In this document: piece by piece, positions 1-20,929 of the stretch
Numbering within the stretch: position 1 is the first letter of the stretch
Layout: the number at the start of each line of letters is the position of its first letter
Source of the DNA: Gemmatimonadota bacterium
Lineage (GTDB): Bacteria; Gemmatimonadota; Gemmatimonadetes; Gemmatimonadales; Gemmatimonadaceae
NCBI GenBank assembly: GCA_027307165.1
Contig: DAHUXM010000035.1
Location: forward strand, 1 to 45,311
Length of the DNA: 45,311 nucleotides
Direction of reading: 5' to 3'
Notes under the pieces: model-generated
Told to the model about the DNA's origin: nothing
The model's database searches: none
The model's input: only the letters and a program-made list of their open reading frames with translations
Position numbers and translations under genes: made by a program

Positions 1-117
1 CAGCAGAGCGATGCCGCCGGCTTCATTCGCCTGTTCGGTCTCTCTGCGCGCGTCCGTGCCCTACGCGACCAGGAGCGCGCAGTCGAGGCCGCAAGCGGAG
101 ATCAGCAAGCCGCGTAA
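1..117 (+). CDS. argG: Argininosuccinate synthase, C-terminal fragment (cut by window start)
   Basis: An open frame runs from the first base to a TAA at 115-117, encoding 38 residues. The piece contains DAAGFIRLFGLSARVRAL, which resembles the helix-forming C-terminus of argininosuccinate synthase, where a D-A-x-G-F-I-x-L-F-G-L segment precedes the end. The enzyme joins citrulline and aspartate using ATP, the step before ArgH in arginine synthesis. The next gene downstream is argH, which supports the assignment. Only the tail is visible, so the call rests on a short motif plus context. Another protein ending in a similar helix cannot be excluded. Confidence 0.7.
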   Translation, partial: QQSDAAGFIRLFGLSARVRALRDQERAVEAASGDQQAA

Positions 118-12764: not shown

Positions 12765-12814
12765 CTGCTTCATTCTCCTAGATAAGTGCGCCCGACGAGC
12801 GCTCTCGCCGAGCA

Positions 12815-12832
12815 TTGTGAAACTATTCACAA
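12815..12832. promoter_or_regulatory. Crp/Fnr-family operator (TGTGA-N6-TCACA)
   Basis: TTGTGAAACTATTCACAA is an inverted repeat with 7-nt arms and a 4-nt centre. It contains the exact TGTGA-N6-TCACA pattern of Crp-type sites at 12816-12831. It is centred about 59 nt upstream of the preferred cupredoxin start codon and 61 nt upstream of the his leader ATG, so it may regulate either. The regulator is not in the window. Confidence 0.6.
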
Positions 12833-12850
12833 ACCGCGCCTAATTCAATG

Positions 12851-12879
12851 TTGACAACAAATCCGTCTCTGACCACATT
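12851..12879 (+). promoter_or_regulatory. Possible his operon promoter (-35 TTGACA)
   Basis: A perfect TTGACA lies at 12851-12856. The best -10 match at a 17-nt spacing is CACATT (12874-12879), which is weak. Such a promoter would start transcription almost at the leader ATG (12885), leaving a leaderless leader peptide. If the hairpin using 12879-12888 is real, the true start must be further upstream. Confidence 0.35.
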
Positions 12880-12884
12880 CAGGC

Positions 12885-12956
12885 ATGGCTCGTACCGCAA
12901 CCCACCACGCTCATCATCTCCATGTCCTGACGGACCGGGGATTTTGTCGTACGTGA
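12885..12956 (+). CDS. hisL: Histidine operon leader peptide (23 aa, five His)
   Basis: An ATG at 12885 opens a 23-codon frame ending in TGA at 12954-12956. Residues 7-13 read H-H-A-H-H-L-H, five histidines in seven positions. Such density almost never occurs by chance directly upstream of hisG. The peptide itself probably has no function. Ribosome progress through its His codons reports the supply of charged tRNA-His. The His codons lie at 12903-12923, immediately 5' of the antiterminator strand 12929-12942. No good Shine-Dalgarno site is visible, only AGG at 12881-12883. Confidence 0.85.
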   Translation: MARTATHHAHHLHVLTDRGFCRT

Positions 12957-12989
12957 TGGGCTGACCAGCCAAACCATCCGCGATCTCCG

Positions 12990-13020
12990 GCCCGTCCTTC
13001 TGGACGGGCTTTTTTGTTTT
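12990..13020 (+). terminator. Intrinsic terminator of the his attenuator
   Basis: GCCCGTCC (12990-12997) pairs with GGACGGGC (13002-13009) around a TTCT loop and is followed by TTTTTTGTTTT (13010-13020). It ends 31 nt before the hisG start codon. Confidence 0.92.
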
Positions 13021-13051
13021 CCAGTCCAATCTTCTCCTATTTCCCACTCAC

Positions 13052-13975
13052 ATGATACCGGCTGAATTCCAGCTCGAACCACTAACTTCCCGCACCGTGA
13101 TCCCCCCGGTCCTCCGGATCGCGCTTCCGAACAAGGGGCGTCTGGCACAGGATACGCGCGAGCTTTTCAACGACGCAGGCCTCGAAGTCCGCGCTTCCAG
13201 CGATCGGGCCCTCAAGGCTTCACTCGGCGCAGACTTCGAGGCGATCTTCGTCCGGGCCCAGGATATCCCTGAGTTCGTGTCCGACGGCGCCGCAGACGCA
13301 GGAGTTACAGGGCTGGATCTCATCGCCGAGAACAGGCGCGGTGTGGTCTCCAGACTCGACCTCGGATTCGGAAAATGCCGCCTCTCCATGGCCGCCCGGG
13401 AGGAAAGCGGAGTCGATGATTTCTGCCAATTGCCGCCGCGGTCCCGCGTCGCGACGGCATTCCCCAACATCACGGCGCGCTTTTGCGCCGAGGCAGGCCT
13501 CGATCTCGAGATAGTGCCGATCTCGGGCGCCGCCGAGATCGCCCCCCACCTGGGCATCGCTGACGTCATCGTGGATCTAGTCTCCACGGGATCCACCCTC
13601 AAGACCAACGGTCTGCGAGAGATCGGCACGATAATGCAGTCCACGGCCCAGCTGGTCGTCGCCGAGAACCGGACCGCCTGGCCGGCAGCCAAAGAAACGG
13701 CTCTGCAGGAGCTGTGCACGGCACTCGAGTCGGTGACGTCCGCACGCGGCCAACGCTACCTCATGGCCAATGTGCCGCGAGACCGTCTCGACGAAGTCCG
13801 TCAGGTCCTTCCAGGACTCAACGGCCCTACCGTGATCGACGTCCTGGACGGAGGCAGACATGTCGCCGTTCATGCGGTCGTGGCAGCATCTGCGATATAT
13901 CGAACTATTGCGGATCTGAAGGCAATCGGGGGAGAAGGGATCCTTGTAACTCGCATCGAGAGACTGATGCGATGA
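13052..13975 (+). CDS. hisG: ATP phosphoribosyltransferase, long form
   Basis: First enzyme of histidine synthesis: it condenses ATP with PRPP. At 307 residues it is the long form, with catalytic domains I-II followed by a C-terminal ACT-like regulatory domain (about residues 220-307) that binds histidine, so no hisZ partner is needed and none is seen. Visible motifs are LRIALPNKGRL near residue 21, GLDLIAENR near 86 and the PRPP-binding segment DVIVDLVSTGSTLK near 172. ATG 13052 is used. GTG 13097 in frame, just before the conserved IPPVLRIALPNKG, is an alternative. No Shine-Dalgarno site is clear. The gene is the first of nine and ends in an ATGA overlap with hisD. Confidence 0.96.
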   Translation: MIPAEFQLEPLTSRTVIPPVLRIALPNKGRLAQDTRELFNDAGLEVRASSDRALKASLGADFEAIFVRAQDIPEFVSDGAADAGVTGLDLIAENRRGVVSRLDLGFGKCRLSMAAREESGVDDFCQLPPRSRVATAFPNITARFCAEAGLDLEIVPISGAAEIAPHLGIADVIVDLVSTGSTLKTNGLREIGTIMQSTAQLVVAENRTAWPAAKETALQELCTALESVTSARGQRYLMANVPRDRLDEVRQVLPGLNGPTVIDVLDGGRHVAVHAVVAASAIYRTIADLKAIGGEGILVTRIERLMR

Positions 13976-15297
13976 CAAGCGATCCTAACTTGCGTAAAGT
14001 TTGGCTAACAGAGCGTATATCTGGCCTGACAGAGAGTGCCAAAAAGGTGCTTTTTTCGCGCGGCCCTTCGTCAGGTGACGCGGTTGCGGTCGCAACAACA
14101 AGACTCCTCGATGCAGTGAGGCTCCGCGGCGACAAGGCCCTGTCTGAGATGGCGAAGGACTTCGATGGAGTCGAGATGGCCACCTTCGAGATCGCTCGCC
14201 CAGCTTGGCGGACTGCGCTCGACTCCCTCGACCGCAGCCTCGTCAGGGCGATGGAGCGCAGCATCCGGAATCTCGAATCGGTACAGCAGGCCTTTCTCCC
14301 AACGACCTCGGAGACGTCGCCCGAACCCGGCGTCCTCGTCGGACGCCGGCCTGACCCTATCGACACAGTCGGTATCTATGCACCAGGTGGGCGTGCCGCC
14401 TACCCAAGCAGTGTCTTGATGGGCGCGGTTCCAGCCCGGGTAGCTGGCGTGCGTGAACTGATTCTGTGCTCGCCGCCTGGTCCGTCAGGACTTCCGTCCC
14501 CAGTAGTTCTTGCGGCCGCCGAGCTCACGGACGTCGACCGAGTATTCGCACTCGGCGGGGCAGGGGCGATTGGTGCGATGGCGTATGGAACGGAGACCGT
14601 TCCAGGCGTGGACCGGATAGTAGGGCCTGGAAATGCATATGTCGCCGAGGCCAAGCTCCAGGTAGCGGGTGTCGTTGCGATCGATTCGCCGGCTGGCCCG
14701 AGTGAGCTGCTCGTAATCGCTGACGCGACTTCCGATCCTGACGTAGTGGTAAGGGAGACGCTGGCTCAAGCAGAGCACGATCCGCGCGCCGTTGTCGTGG
14801 TCGTTGCCATCGGGCAGAGTGTCGCGGACTGTATTGTCGAGCGGCTCGTCGGCGCGATTTCGGCGCAGACCAGGCGCGAGGTCATCGAAGAGTCGCTGCG
14901 GACGCGCGGCGCGGTATTGTGCGCAGCGGATGTCGACGAAGCGATCGCCTTCAGCAACTCCTTCGCGCCGGAGCATCTGCTTCTCGCAGTGGCGAATGCG
15001 CGCGACTTGCTTCCGCGCTGCCGTAACGCGGGGACCATATTCGTCGGCGAGCGCAGCTCCGTTGCGTTTGGTGATTATATGACGGGCGCAAATCACGTTC
15101 TTCCGACGGGTGGACTTGCGCGCTCCTACTCGGGTCTGTCGGTGCTCGATTTCATGCGCTGGACGACATACCAGGTGATCGATCCTGCCGTCGCGAAGGG
15201 TTTGACTGAAGACGTTGGAGTATTCGCGGATGCGGAGGGTTTGCCTGCGCACGCTGCGGCAGCACGACAGTGGACGTCCGTCGGAGCGGCACAGTGA
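13972..15297 (+). CDS. hisD: Histidinol dehydrogenase
   Basis: The 441-residue zinc enzyme oxidises histidinol to histidine in two NAD-dependent steps, the end of the pathway. Conserved elements are YAPGGRAAYPSSVLM (residues 136-150), VGPGNAYVAEAK (217-228), DSPAGPSE (238-245), the zinc-ligand region QAEHD (266-270) and the catalytic pair E334-H335 in FAPEHL. ATG 13972 overlaps the hisG stop (ATGA). The frame is open further upstream inside hisG, but that part lacks family similarity. Length is normal (about 430). Confidence 0.97.
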   Translation: MTSDPNLRKVWLTERISGLTESAKKVLFSRGPSSGDAVAVATTRLLDAVRLRGDKALSEMAKDFDGVEMATFEIARPAWRTALDSLDRSLVRAMERSIRNLESVQQAFLPTTSETSPEPGVLVGRRPDPIDTVGIYAPGGRAAYPSSVLMGAVPARVAGVRELILCSPPGPSGLPSPVVLAAAELTDVDRVFALGGAGAIGAMAYGTETVPGVDRIVGPGNAYVAEAKLQVAGVVAIDSPAGPSELLVIADATSDPDVVVRETLAQAEHDPRAVVVVVAIGQSVADCIVERLVGAISAQTRREVIEESLRTRGAVLCAADVDEAIAFSNSFAPEHLLLAVANARDLLPRCRNAGTIFVGERSSVAFGDYMTGANHVLPTGGLARSYSGLSVLDFMRWTTYQVIDPAVAKGLTEDVGVFADAEGLPAHAAAARQWTSVGAAQ

Positions 15298-16325
15298 CAC
15301 GCGACAGCTACAGATCCATTTCTCTGTATGCGCCAAACCGTGCGCCGGCGGCTATCGATCTCAGCGATAATACCAACCTCTGGGGTGTTCCTCCGGCTGC
15401 TCTGCGTGCGATTACAGATGCTGCGTCGGGTACGATCACGCGTTATCCGGCGTTGTACGCGGCGGATGTGAAGCAGGCGATCGCAGATTATGCGGGACTG
15501 GCACCTGAGATGGTGGTGACAGGATGCGGCTCCGACGACGTACTTGACTCCGCAATCCGCGCATTCGGCGAGCCGGGTGATGTTGTTGCCTATCCCGATC
15601 CGTCGTTCGCAATGATTCCCATCTTCGCCCGGATGAACGGGCTTGTCGGCGCACCGATTCCGCTCACTGCACGGAACGATGCGGACGTCGAGCGATACAT
15701 CGAGACAAATGCGACCATTACTTACCTGTGTTCGCCGAACAACCCGACAGGCGCATCGTTCTCGCGCGACGCGATAGAACGGGTCGTCTCTGGTGTGACT
15801 GGTATCGTGATCATCGATGAAGCATACGCCGAGTTCGCGGGGTGGAACTGTCTGGATTTGCTGGTCCGGTTTCCCCGTGTCGTGATCACGCGCACCTTAT
15901 CCAAGGCGTTCGGCCTGGCCGGTCTTCGGGTTGGTTATGCACTGGGTGATCCGGAGTTGGTAGCAGAGATAGAGAAATCCCGCGGTCCATACAAGGTGAA
16001 TGCGATCGCTCAACATGCAGCCGTTGCGGCTCTCACGACAGACCGTGCCTGGGTCGATCGCCACGTTCGGGACGCAATTGCGAATCGCGACCGATTGCGA
16101 GAATCGCTCATGGCGATTGGATTGGAGCCATTGCCGAGTGACAGCAATTTCGTGCTGGTCCCTGTCAGGAATGCAGCGGAGCTCGACCGGCAGCTGCGTA
16201 CGCGCGGCATCGCCGTCCGGCCATTCGTTGCACTACCCAACATCGGAGACGCCTTGCGCATATCGGTTGGGCCGTGGCAGCTGCTGGAACAATGCATCGC
16301 CGCGTTGCAGGAGTGCGCTGTATGA
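15294..16325 (+). CDS. hisC: Histidinol-phosphate aminotransferase
   Basis: A PLP-dependent class I/II aminotransferase of 343 residues that converts imidazole-acetol phosphate to histidinol phosphate with glutamate. Visible motifs are LSDNTNLWGVPP at the N-terminus and YLCSPNNPTGASF, the substrate/PLP segment. IVIIDEAYAEF follows (the Asp contacts the pyridine nitrogen), then the Schiff-base lysine in TRTLSKAFGLAGLRVGY. GTG 15294 overlaps the hisD stop as GTGA, matching the spacing of the whole operon. The upstream part of the frame is shadow sequence within hisD. Confidence 0.96.
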   Translation: MTRDSYRSISLYAPNRAPAAIDLSDNTNLWGVPPAALRAITDAASGTITRYPALYAADVKQAIADYAGLAPEMVVTGCGSDDVLDSAIRAFGEPGDVVAYPDPSFAMIPIFARMNGLVGAPIPLTARNDADVERYIETNATITYLCSPNNPTGASFSRDAIERVVSGVTGIVIIDEAYAEFAGWNCLDLLVRFPRVVITRTLSKAFGLAGLRVGYALGDPELVAEIEKSRGPYKVNAIAQHAAVAALTTDRAWVDRHVRDAIANRDRLRESLMAIGLEPLPSDSNFVLVPVRNAAELDRQLRTRGIAVRPFVALPNIGDALRISVGPWQLLEQCIAALQECAV

Positions 16326-16918
16326 ACGGGAAGACGATCATCACCGTCTTCGACTACGGCGCCGGCAACATGCATTCGCTGCTGAAGGCGCTCGACATAG
16401 GGGCCGACGTCGAAGTGCGGTTGCAGACTGACCCCGAGGCCGCGCTGGAAACTGATGCACTGGTTCTGCCCGGCGTGGGGGCCTTCAGCAATGCGGCTGG
16501 CAGGCTTGCATCCGGTGCTCCTGCGATGCGCGATGCAATCCTCGGCGGTTTGCCGACTCTCTGCATCTGCCTCGGGATGCAGCTGCTTTTCGACGACAGC
16601 GAGGAGGGGCCCGGCGCAGGACTCGGGGTCATACCGGGCCACGTACGCAGGCTCAGGGCGAAGAGAGTTCCCCAGATTGGATGGAATGAAGTCGAATCGC
16701 TCGATGAAGCGCTGCCGCAGGTTGCATATTTCGCGAACAGCTATGTATGCGACCCGGATGATCCCGACTGTATCACGGCATATACGACCCATGAGCGCGA
16801 CCGATTCGCGTCGGTCGTGACTGTCGCCAACACTATCGGGGTGCAGTTCCATCCTGAGAAGAGCTCCCGGGCGGGAGTCAGCTTCGTGCGAGACTTCGTC
16901 AACGGAGTGATTCGATGA
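16322..16918 (+). CDS. hisH: Imidazole glycerol phosphate synthase, glutamine amidotransferase subunit
   Basis: The 198-residue class I glutaminase subunit releases ammonia from glutamine and passes it to HisF. It has the N-terminal FDYGAGNMHSL. The nucleophile is Cys83 in LCICLGMQLLF, and the catalytic His and Glu are in VQFHPEKS near residue 176. Length is typical (about 200). ATG 16322 overlaps the hisC stop (ATGA). Its partner hisF lies three genes downstream, with hisA and hisB between, a common his operon order. Confidence 0.97.
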   Translation: MNGKTIITVFDYGAGNMHSLLKALDIGADVEVRLQTDPEAALETDALVLPGVGAFSNAAGRLASGAPAMRDAILGGLPTLCICLGMQLLFDDSEEGPGAGLGVIPGHVRRLRAKRVPQIGWNEVESLDEALPQVAYFANSYVCDPDDPDCITAYTTHERDRFASVVTVANTIGVQFHPEKSSRAGVSFVRDFVNGVIR

Positions 16919-17628
16919 TCGCGATACCAGCGATAGACATTCGCGATGGAGCGTGCGTTCAGCTCGTTGGCGGTTCGTATGACGCCGAGCAGGTGAGACT
17001 GGATGATCCTGCCGGGGTCGCGCACAAGTGGGAGTTTGCGGGCTTTCGCCGTCTGCACATGGTCGACCTCGACGCGGCGACGGGACGCGGCAACAATGCA
17101 GAGATGATCCGTGAGGTGTTGCGCGCAACTTCAATGGAAGCACAGGTGGGCGGCGGCGTACGCGATGAAGAGCGAATCGAGTCGCTGCTTCGCGAGGGTG
17201 CGCAACGCGTGGTTCTTGGTACGAAGGCTGTCGAGAGCGCCAACTGGCTCGGCGACATGGCGGAAGCATTTCCGGGTACGTTGATCGTAGCCGCCGATGT
17301 GCGCGACCGGCATGTCGTCACGAGAGGCTGGACGCGCACATCGGACCGTTACGTGCTGGACTTCATTGAAGAGCTCAACGCGCTTCCACTGGCCGGTGTA
17401 ATGGTCACGGCCGTGCACAAGGAAGGTCTCATGGAAGGAACCGATCTCTCTCTAATGGAAGATGTGGTGGAGGAGAGCGAGCATCCGGTGTGTGCCAGTG
17501 GCGGTATAGGCACGATCGGTGATCTACGTGCACTCGAGGACCGGGGAGTGGCATCAGTTGTCATAGGGATGGCGCTGTACACGGGCGCTATCGATCCAGG
17601 AGCCGTTGCTGAGGAGTTTGCCGAATGA
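16915..17628 (+). CDS. hisA: ProFAR isomerase (phosphoribosyl-formimino-AICAR-P isomerase)
   Basis: The 237-residue beta/alpha-barrel opens the ribose ring of ProFAR to give PRFAR. The catalytic aspartate near the N-terminus lies in IPAIDIRDGACVQLVGG. The half-barrel phosphate sites are VGGGVRDEERI (about residue 78) and CASGGIGTIGDLRAL (about 194), the internal repeat shared with HisF. ATG 16915 overlaps the hisH stop (ATGA). Confidence 0.97.
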   Translation: MIAIPAIDIRDGACVQLVGGSYDAEQVRLDDPAGVAHKWEFAGFRRLHMVDLDAATGRGNNAEMIREVLRATSMEAQVGGGVRDEERIESLLREGAQRVVLGTKAVESANWLGDMAEAFPGTLIVAADVRDRHVVTRGWTRTSDRYVLDFIEELNALPLAGVMVTAVHKEGLMEGTDLSLMEDVVEESEHPVCASGGIGTIGDLRALEDRGVASVVIGMALYTGAIDPGAVAEEFAE

Positions 17629-18176
17629 GTGAAAGGATAGTAGTGGAGCGCAAGACGCGCGAGACGCAGATCCGGCTCGAGGTTCAGCGTGGAGAAGGGA
17701 AGGGTGACGTTGCAACGGGTGTTCCGTTTCTGGATCACATGATGGTTACGTTCGCACGTTACTCGGGCCTCGACGTGACCTTGCGCGCGACCGGTGACCT
17801 GAGACATCACACGATCGAGGATGTGGCGATTGCCATGGGTTCGGCGGTTGCTGACGTCATCAGTCCATCGGCGGCACGCTATGGCGATTGTACCATTCCG
17901 ATGGATGAGGCGTTGGTTCAGGCGTGCGTCGATATGGGTGGCCGGCCGTATTATCGCGGGCCGGTGCCGAGTGGTCTGTACGATCACTGGATGCGCTCCT
18001 TCGCGGACAATGCGAAGGCGACGATTCACATTCGCGTCCTGCGCGGTGTCGACCGGCACCACATTGTAGAGGCTGCGTTCAAGGCTCTCGGTCTGGCGAT
18101 TCGCAAGGCGATGGTTGATACTGGTGCGGGTGCCGTATTCAGCACCAAGGGTGCTGTATCGCTGGACGTAAAGTGA
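17625..18176 (+). CDS. hisB: Imidazoleglycerol-phosphate dehydratase
   Basis: The 183-residue Mn-dependent enzyme dehydrates IGP to imidazole-acetol phosphate. It is the monofunctional form without the HAD phosphatase domain found fused in enterobacteria; that phosphatase step is supplied here by hisN. Metal-binding histidine motifs are visible as [29 protein letters not shown] and [16 protein letters not shown] 17625 overlaps the hisA stop (ATGA) and the gene ends in a GTGA overlap with hisF. Confidence 0.97.
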
Positions 18177-18937
18177 CGCTCACACGCAGACTGATAGTGT
18201 GTCTCGATGTCAGGGATGGCCGGGTGGTGAAGGGGACGCGTTTTGTGAACCTTCGCGACGTTGGCGATCCTGTGGAGTTGGCAGCGCGATACGAAGCGGA
18301 AGGCGCCGACGAGATAGTCTTTCTGGATATCTCCGCGAGTGTCGAAGGACGTGGTACACTGCTGGATGTGGCGCGACGAACCGCTGAGAAGCTGTTCATC
18401 CCGCTCACAATCGGTGGTGGAGTGCGGAGTGCTGCTGATGTCGCTCAGGTATTGCGCGCCGGTGCGGACAAGGTCGCAATCAACTCTGCTGCCGTACTAC
18501 GACCAGCAGTGCTGGAGGAAGCGGCGGCCATGTTTGGCGCGCAATGTGTTGTGTCCAGCATCGACGCCAAAATGGTCGACGGATCGTGGCGCGTCTTCAC
18601 GAATGGCGGAAGAACAGCTACGGATCTCGATGCCGTGGAGTGGGCGCGAAAGTGCGAGCGGCGCGGTGCGGGGGAGATACTTCTCACCAGCATAGATCGT
18701 GATGGATCCAGGGACGGATATGACCTCGACCTGACGCGCACCGTTGCGGACGCTGTGAGCGTTCCCGTCATCGCATCGGGCGGGGCCGGCGCGGCGCGTG
18801 ACGTCGTCGAGGTGATTCAATCGGGCCGCGCAGATGCGGCACTTGTCGCTGGCATCCTGCACGATGGGGTGACGACAGTGTATGAGCTCAAGACGTGCAT
18901 GAGAGAAGCATCGTTACCCGTGAGAGACGCAGCATGA
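18173..18937 (+). CDS. hisF: Imidazole glycerol phosphate synthase, cyclase subunit
   Basis: This 254-residue beta/alpha-barrel receives ammonia from HisH and forms IGP plus AICAR from PRFAR. The catalytic aspartate near the start is in [17 protein letters not shown] second is in VSSIDAKMV near residue 129. The phosphate sites are [11 protein letters not shown] and [12 protein letters not shown]. The GTG start at 18173 overlaps the hisB stop (GTGA). Product AICAR feeds purine synthesis, linking both pathways. Confidence 0.97.
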
Positions 18938-19701
18938 ACGATTCATATCTGGAAGCAGTCGTCGAGCTTGCCCGCGTTGCCGGTGATTTCGCGATGTCGC
19001 ACTATGGCCGGACACTCACTGTCGACGTGAAGCACGATGGTTCCCCCGTGACGATCGCGGATCGTGGCGCAGAGGAGCGCGCCAGGGCGTGGATCGAGAA
19101 GCGGTTTCCCGACGACGGAATTCTGGGTGAGGAATTCGGTGACGTGCGCCCGACCGCGCGGAGACGGTGGATTCTCGATCCGATCGACGGAACCAAGAGC
19201 TTCATAAGAAGAGTCCCCCTGTGGGGAACGCTTGTCGCCGTTACCGAAGGTGAGTCGGTGCTCGCAGGATGCGCATACTTTCCGGCAGTGGCGGAGACTG
19301 TTGCTGCAGCTGCTGGCGAAGGATGTTTCTGGAACGGCACTCGCTGCAGCGTATCATCTACCGCGACGATTGCAGAGGCGACCATCGTGATAACCGACGA
19401 ACGGTTCGAAGAACGCCCTGAGCGCGCAAGAGCGTGGCGACGGCTCGCATCGCAGGCCAGTGTATCGCGCACCTGGGGGGATTGTTACGGATATCTGCTG
19501 CTTGCCACTGGACGAGCCGACGTGATGGTCGATGACGTCGTAGCGCCGTGGGATGCGGCTGCACTGTATCCGATAGTTACCGAGGCCGGTGGGTCGTTCA
19601 CGGATTGGAGTGGCAGTGCCACAGCATTCGGCGGTGACATCATCGCTACCAACTCTGCCCTGGCCAAACCGGTGCGGAACATTCTGATTGAAGCGTCATG
19701 A
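18934..19701 (+). CDS. hisN: Histidinol-phosphatase, inositol-monophosphatase type
   Basis: The 255-residue protein belongs to the inositol monophosphatase superfamily. Metal-binding motifs are GEEFGD near residue 66 and [13 protein letters not shown] near 83. A later [15 protein letters not shown] motif completes the site. Within a his operon lacking a HisB phosphatase domain or a PHP-type HisJ, its role as histidinol-phosphate phosphatase is well supported by context. Sequence alone could not exclude activity on other sugar or inositol phosphates. ATG 18934 overlaps the hisF stop (ATGA). Confidence 0.92.
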
Positions 19702-20288
19702 CAACAGACGATCTGGATTTCGAGAAGGGCGCTGGCCTGGTCACCGTGGTCACGCAGGATGCGGTTACCGGTGCCGTGCTGATGGTCGCTCACATGGATC
19801 GCGAAGCATTCGACAGGACCGTTGCAACGGGCGAGATGCACTATCGGTCGCGTACGCGCGGGCTGTGGCACAAGGGAGCTACGAGCGGGAATGTGCAACG
19901 TGTGGTGTCGCTCACGCCCGATTGTGATCGTGATGCGATCCTTGCACGTGTAAATCCAGCCGGTCCTGCCTGTCACAATGGTACGGTGTCATGCTTCGAT
20001 CACCCTGCAAATGGAGATGCACTCACGCAACTCGCATCGGTGATCGAGTCACGGGCGCAGGGCATTGGTGACGAGAGTTATACCAGAAAATTGCTGGCCG
20101 ATCGCAACTTGCGGCTGAAGAAGCTGGGTGAGGAGACAGCGGAGCTGGTGCTGGCACTCGCGGACAGTGACGACACCCGCGCCCGTGAAGAGGCCGCGGA
20201 TCTTATCTATCATTTGATGACCGCCTTGCGCGCCAACGGCGTTACGTTGGATGACGTTCGGCGCGTGCTGGCGAGCCGTGCGGGGTAG
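19698..20288 (+). CDS. hisIE: Bifunctional phosphoribosyl-AMP cyclohydrolase / phosphoribosyl-ATP pyrophosphatase
   Basis: The 196-residue fusion covers steps two and three of the pathway. The N-terminal HisI domain (about 1-105) has AHMDREAFDRTVATGEMHY, SRTRGLWHKGATSGN and the metal-binding D-C-D segment (LTPDCDRD). The C-terminal HisE domain (about 115-196) has KLLADRNLRLKKLGEETAEL and EEAADLIYHLM, typical of the MazG-like pyrophosphohydrolase fold. It closes the operon with an ATGA overlap with hisN. No hairpin terminator is obvious in the 23 nt before the convergent rcnR-like gene. Confidence 0.96.
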   Translation: MTTDDLDFEKGAGLVTVVTQDAVTGAVLMVAHMDREAFDRTVATGEMHYRSRTRGLWHKGATSGNVQRVVSLTPDCDRDAILARVNPAGPACHNGTVSCFDHPANGDALTQLASVIESRAQGIGDESYTRKLLADRNLRLKKLGEETAELVLALADSDDTRAREEAADLIYHLMTALRANGVTLDDVRRVLASRAG

Positions 20289-20691: not shown

Positions 20692-20750
20692 TTGGTTGCT
20701 ACGTTGCCCCTGTTACCGGTGTTCCCAATCGAGGAAGCGCCGATATCGCA

Positions 20751-20929
20751 GCGGTTCTCGGTAGGCGAGGCTACCCCGCACACACAGGCCACTGCCCGAC
20801 AGCGTCGACAGACGTCTGATCGCGGTAGAACAGGTTCTCCCGGATTAAGGGTTTACCCAATGTGGCTGAGGTCATGGCATCGACCTCTTACGGTGCGCGG
20901 TGCTGAAGCTCACACGAGTGAGAACGCGG
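20751..20929 (+). ncRNA. M-box (ykoK leader) magnesium riboswitch aptamer
   Basis: The sequence follows the M-box order: a 5' TAGGCGAGGCTACC block, then ACTGCCCGACAGCGTCGACA, GGTAGAACAG, TTAAGG, AATGTGGCTGAGG, and a 3' GGTGCTGAAGCTCACACGA block (consensus GUGCUAAAGCUC-ACGA). Helices are supported by pairing that differs in sequence from the B. subtilis ykoK aptamer as I recall it. P1 is 20754-20759 with 20920-20925. P2 extension is 20777-20781 with 20893-20897, and GCCAC 20788-20792 pairs with GTGGC 20862-20866. A GAGGTC/GACCTC hairpin is at 20868-20887. M-boxes compact on Mg2+ and turn off Mg transport genes. The gene downstream is an Nramp-related transporter, which fits. Confidence 0.85.

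Follow-up and report, generated by a model that had tools for sequence, protein, structure and literature searches.

A probable histidine attenuator with a predicted leaderless leader peptide, conserved upstream of hisG in Gemmatimonadota

Introduction

Attenuation of the histidine operon at a leader peptide is a textbook mechanism in enterobacteria. In mycobacteria, polycysteine ORFs are said to act as leaderless leader-peptide attenuators, as reportedly described by Canestrari in 2020 (cited in PMC13236596). The enterobacterial his leader peptide contains seven consecutive histidines (PMC3896937). According to a 2010 paper, leader peptides had until then been shown only in Proteobacteria and Actinobacteria; his leaders were predicted there in bacilli, the Firmicutes cases being those of hisZ/hisS* (PMC2965389). 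A 2022 paper adds predicted his leaders of the Bacillus cereus group, Peptostreptococcaceae and Erysipelotrichales (PMC9413887). A survey of Actinobacteria found no histidine leader (PMC1262725). Leaderless leader peptides were reported in Streptomyces for trp, leu, ilv, met and thr, including trpL1, leuL2 and ilvL (PMC8079986). Leaderless leader-peptide attenuators were also described at trpL of Sinorhizobium (PMC7298713) and at ilvBNC of Corynebacterium (PMC11857589). A search of the literature for Gemmatimonas or Gemmatimonad- returned no report of leader-peptide attenuation, an earlier listing in older surveys (Vitreschak 2004, Lopatovskaya 2010) being possible, and no leaderless his attenuator was found in the searchable literature.

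Genomic setting

The window, i.e. the whole stretch of 45,311 nucleotides that was analysed, comes from a genome of 3.7 Mb that is 98% complete. Its hisG has named relatives in Gemmatimonadaceae and Gemmatimonadetes bacteria, and a third one, L032, that is labelled Omnitrophota. These relatives place the locus in Gemmatimonadota and bear out the first-pass annotation, which had supposed a phylum very distant from enterobacteria. All features described below lie on the forward (+) strand. The his operon has the order hisG-D-C-H-A-B-F-N-IE and begins at 13052 with hisG (13052-13975; TIGR00070, E 4.8e-62). The remaining genes, hisD, hisC, hisH, hisA, hisB, hisF, hisN and hisIE, mostly overlap and occupy 13714-20288, the start of hisD being uncertain. 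The operon includes a hisN-type histidinol-phosphatase (18895-19701, +) that overlaps hisF and is followed by the fused hisIE. Further downstream, an M-box (ykoK) magnesium riboswitch (20750-20929, +; 120.8 bits) precedes frames for an OprB-type porin (21214) and an Nramp transporter (22956). The whole genome G000 (98% complete) has no match to TIGR00118, the large subunit of acetolactate synthase, which all control genomes match; a branched-chain amino acid auxotrophy of G000 is therefore possible.

A His-rich leader ORF and its candidate control codons

A leader peptide ORF of 23 codons, MARTATHHAHHLHVLTDRGFCRT, extends from the ATG at 12885 to the TGA stop at 12954-12956 (12885-12956) and has no Shine-Dalgarno site. 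The candidate control codons (12903-12923) are the histidine codons 7, 8, 10, 11 and 13, located at 12903-12905, 12906-12908, 12912-12914, 12915-12917 and 12921-12923. The frame with five histidines in seven positions ahead of hisG, from which the earlier reading of this DNA had started, is thus present as claimed. Together with a terminator before the first gene, such a short ORF ahead of a biosynthetic operon, with a run of codons for the amino acid that the operon makes, is the layout of an attenuator.

The upstream regions of hisG in relatives were searched for frames of 8-60 codons with at least four histidines in nine codons. Of 91 Gemmatimonadaceae regions, 89 contain such a frame. One of the two exceptions is interrupted by assembly Ns (L014) and the other has another gene context (L024). 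The same search of the 91 family regions with other rare residues gave 0-2 matches (none for W, Y, F, M, N, K and D), and histidine on the reverse strand gave 4 matches vs 89 in sense. Both family members bearing a divergent hisG copy also have a His-rich leader. Across the leaders, histidine is encoded by 420 CAC and 316 CAT codons, so that third positions change while the residue is kept, and gaps in the ORF alignment are mostly multiples of three. This synonymous variation and these in-frame gaps point to selection on the residue and not on the RNA alone. The number of histidines (4-9) and their spacing differ among leaders, and the interval between leader stop and terminator arm is held within 25-41 nt.

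Beyond the family, the leader was found in 8 of 19 regions from other families of the order and in 20 of 30 from the class; none of the five upstream regions from outside the class contained it. Of the 12 regions of the order that lack a leader adjacent to hisG, 11 have a same-strand frame that ends 3-21 nt before hisG, which is thus not the first gene of those operons. Within the order, the leader is found chiefly where hisG opens its operon. In L107 (longer region L226), the leader lies 632 nt before hisG, ahead of the preceding frame, and is introduced by TTGACA-17-TACAGT-8-ATG; because of this position, the order counts eight leaders in one tally and seven in the other. A distant leader ahead of operons with an internal hisG was sought in 14 longer regions; 13 were without one and only L226 was positive.

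Several relatives deserve separate mention. In ten regions of the same order (L102, L105, L108-L113, L116 and L117), hisG stands directly behind another gene and has no His leader. The different his operon type of family f2 appears not to use one. Region L024 (genome G033) is the only intact family member examined that has neither leader nor terminator. The divergent frame before its hisG reads like an HU DNA-binding protein, and this context suggests that the attenuator was lost through rearrangement. Finally, L032 carries, at its positions 1261-1335, a leader of Gemmatimonadota type, MARIATHHALHHLHVLTGRGSCRT. Its contig, PLNN01000017.1, is labelled Candidatus Omnitrophota; its hisG shares 86% identity with the query, and the record is probably mislabelled or misbinned.

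Three mutually exclusive helices

The leader RNA can be described by four pairing strands. Strand 1 (12916-12927, AUCUCCAUGUCC) overlaps the last His codons and pairs with 12932-12942 to form the protector hairpin 1:2. Strand 2 (12929-12942, GACGGACCGGGGAU) is the 5' arm of the antiterminator and pairs with 12983-12996. A 14-position helix had been proposed here; 13 of the 14 positions do pair (one as G-U), the remaining one being an A-C mismatch that is absent from most relatives. In the fold of 12921-12996, the antiterminator has an inner extension (12948-12982) in which 12948-12961 pairs with 12973-12982 and whose 5' side contains the stop codon. The energy of the core helix is -21.3 kcal/mol, and -30.1 kcal/mol with this extension. 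Strand 3 (12983-12997) combines the antiterminator 3' arm (12983-12996) with the terminator 5' arm (12989-12997), which overlap as had been noticed from the letters. The intrinsic terminator (12989-13020) consists of a stem of nine pairs, 12989-12997 with 13002-13010, followed by TTTTTGTTTT. Its U run ends about 31 nt upstream of hisG (13052), again in agreement with the annotation. Two terminator-like sites were observed in the region vs 0.3 expected in shuffles, and the leader folds better than 200 of 200 shuffles (z -3.2).

Covariation was examined in 74 leaders of pairwise identity under 80%. Standard pairs occupy 91.7% of the cells in helix 1:2, 83.8% in 2:3, the least well paired of the three, and 93.1% in 3:4. 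The covariation scores of all three helices lie above all 500 shuffles and all slid controls; these shuffle counts are not probabilities, because the leader sequences are related, and the slid controls guard against kinship only in part. In an alignment-free comparison within the family, the duplex of each strand 2 with its own terminator arm (-24.8 kcal/mol) is stronger than that with swapped arms (-23.3 kcal/mol; permutation p < 1e-4). The 25 leaders that do not belong to the main set likewise have own duplexes stronger than swapped ones (permutation p < 1e-4). An intrinsic terminator is present in 112 of 120 leaders. Some lineages have quite different terminators, of GCCGGC type, still behind a His-rich leader; four leaders of such lineages (L099-L101 and L106) have weak own duplexes, below many swapped arms, so that support for the design is strongest in Gemmatimonadaceae and the class-level families. 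Overall, the antiterminator takes up the 5' arm of the terminator, excludes both terminator and protector and is kept by compensatory change, as in an attenuator. The comparison of hisG upstream regions that the first-pass annotation had proposed as a check thus shows conserved His runs and compensatory changes in all three helices, and the loss of His codons or competing helices, which it had named as a refutation, is not the pattern of the relatives examined.

A covariance model was built from the 74 leaders, the window leader among them. In the home genome it has a single match, at this leader (E 1.3e-14), and nearly every hisG-bearing family genome has one strong match, beside hisG. Nothing stronger than E 1e-6 was found elsewhere in the family genomes, and family genomes lacking hisG gave no strong match. 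Since the model was trained on many of the same leaders, its hits are expected, and it is the lack of strong matches at other places that is informative. The Rfam model RF00514 (His_leader) has no match at its gathering score, nor up to E 5 in 12780-13100; the leader is therefore classed as a ribosome-mediated attenuator by its design and not as a member of RF00514. The T-box riboswitch model has no match in the leader either. At permissive E-values, Rfam gives weak matches only, including Trp_leader (E 0.55), and these were rejected. A general habit of attenuation in the group was also considered; no convincing leader peptides were found upstream of trpE (28 loci) or ilvB (15 loci).

A predicted promoter directly ahead of the leader ATG

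A predicted promoter of sigma-70 type (12851-12879), on which the earlier annotation is silent, lies directly ahead of the leader start codon. It consists of TTGACA (12851-12856), a spacer of 17 nt and CACATT (12874-12879). The latter ends 5 nt upstream of the ATG and is a weaker -10 element than that of most relatives; the spacing to the ATG is conserved in the family. The family pattern is TTGAC-16..18-TANNNT, ending 4-11 nt ahead of the leader ATG. A promoter score of at least 9 is reached by 86% of 93 family leaders vs 1.1% of shuffles, and a 6-nt shift of the anchor abolishes the signal. As the choice of start codon had given weight to the -10 match, the analysis was rerun taking the ATG that most closely precedes the His run; the same start was obtained in 109 of 117 leaders and 84% of the family still score at least 9. 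Class-level relatives have a weaker promoter match (45-60% at a score of at least 9).

The Shine-Dalgarno energy of the leaders is weaker than in shuffles. Gemmatimonadota possess an anti-Shine-Dalgarno sequence (PMC10783764), hence the missing site is a feature of this leader. Zheng et al. recognize leaderless genes by a TANNNT box that lies about 10 nt ahead of the start codon (PMC3160421). Here, judged from sequence only, the start codon follows a few nucleotides after a -10 element and no Shine-Dalgarno site is present, as in leaderless attenuators. The expected transcription start is the leader ATG itself or a position no more than about 2 nt away. With the ATG 4-11 nt behind the promoter and no Shine-Dalgarno site, the RNA is predicted to be leaderless, beginning at or next to its ATG. 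The label "classical" given to this attenuator has to be qualified in two respects: the ORF is predicted to be leaderless and without a Shine-Dalgarno site, and the compact four-strand RNA does not match the Rfam His_leader.

Proposed mechanism and alternative explanations

The comparison of relatives makes it very probable that the his operon is controlled by ribosome-mediated transcription attenuation in response to charged tRNA-His. Conserved His runs and covarying, mutually exclusive helices support this interpretation, which the first-pass annotation had already put forward. Since transcription would start at or next to the leader ATG, a ribosome could enter at the 5'-terminal AUG with no need of a Shine-Dalgarno site. 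When charged tRNA-His is scarce, it would stall at the first His codons (12903-12917) and keep strand 1 open. Strand 2 (12929-12942) could then pair with strand 3 (12983-12996) and the polymerase would read into hisG. When charged tRNA-His is plentiful, the ribosome would travel on to the stop (12954), which lies within the antiterminator 5' side, and block 2:3; the terminator 3:4 would form and transcription would end at about 13015-13020. If no ribosome is present, 1:2 would form and the terminator would win again. The stalling and the response to histidine are inferred from this design.

Folding agrees with each of these states. In the fold without a ribosome, 12916-12927 is paired to 12932-12942. 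If the first 36 nt are masked to mimic a stall at the early His codons and strand 4 has not yet been made, helix 2:3 forms with its inner extension (-30.8 kcal/mol). With the RNA masked through 12970, as by a ribosome at the stop, the terminator alone remains. Strand 2 starts just 6 nt past the last His codon and would be partly covered by a ribosome standing there, so that stalling would have to act at earlier His codons. In the trp and his attenuators, the switch is kinetic and co-transcriptional. All folds that include strand 4 have the terminator in their minimum-energy structure, so the switch of this leader, too, must presumably be kinetic.

The same attenuator might operate with an ORF that is not leaderless, the RNA starting further upstream and initiation using a 5' UTR that lacks a Shine-Dalgarno site. 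The imperfect -10 (CACATT) of the window and the weaker promoter match at class level would fit this reading. It is nevertheless rather unlikely, given that most family members carry TTGAC, 16-18 nt away from a TANNNT-like hexamer whose end lies 4-11 nt ahead of the ATG (1% in shuffles), that this signal vanishes with a 6-nt shift and the Shine-Dalgarno energy falls below shuffle strength, and that the nearest ATG, picked independently of the promoter, agrees.

Two further explanations dispense with ribosome-mediated attenuation. The conserved frame could encode a functional small peptide, for instance a metal-binding one as its histidines would permit, the hairpins being an ordinary terminator only. 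This is very improbable, as the count and spacing of the histidines vary, the element is tied to hisG and a plain terminator has no need of three mutually exclusive covarying helices. Alternatively, an RNA-binding protein or uncharged tRNA could exert control in a TRAP-like or T-box-like manner, the ORF being incidental; according to the 2022 paper, T-boxes or the HisR repressor do control his genes in other bacteria (PMC9413887). A leader without a match to T-box or other Rfam models, whose reading frame is conserved with synonymous variation of His codons, makes such control scarcely credible. Within the attenuation reading, the terminated RNA (about 130 nt, its own AUG first) might serve as a small leaderless mRNA/sRNA acting in trans like rnTrpL/peTrpL of Sinorhizobium, with the class-level his attenuator having evolved independently of Proteobacteria and Firmicutes; this combined proposal is speculative and quite improbable.

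Comparison with known systems

As far as the searchable literature shows, this leader adds another phylum to the users of ribosome-mediated attenuation, and it suggests that leader-peptide attenuation arose repeatedly. It accounts for a small gene and RNA that recur, without annotation, in Gemmatimonadota genomes and are absent from Rfam, and the model can readily be tested on the class-wide set of more than 100 leaders. A leaderless start, as predicted, would couple translation to transcription from the first nucleotide. Initiation would have to use the 5'-terminal AUG, and this start without a Shine-Dalgarno site would constrain how attenuation can work.

With hisL of Escherichia coli and Salmonella (RF00514), the leader shares a His-rich leader peptide, mutually exclusive antiterminator and terminator, and the operon that follows. 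Contrary to enterobacterial hisL, it is predicted to be leaderless, has four pairing strands only and an interrupted His run, is unrelated in sequence, has no Rfam match and belongs to the phylum Gemmatimonadota. The his leaders of Firmicutes, as far as the available parts of their descriptions go, likewise combine a short His-rich ORF with a terminator and antiterminator and are based on comparison only. They occur in scattered lineages, whereas the Gemmatimonadota leader is conserved over most of the class, and leaderless starts are not mentioned in those parts. With the leaderless attenuators of Streptomyces, Sinorhizobium, Corynebacterium and mycobacteria, the leader has in common an RNA that starts at the leader ATG, as predicted here, and cognate control codons; several of them also have an intrinsic terminator. 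They serve other amino acids in other phyla, with no histidine case among those compared. The principle of attenuation is itself known, and what distinguishes this leader is its class-wide conservation together with its predicted leaderless start.
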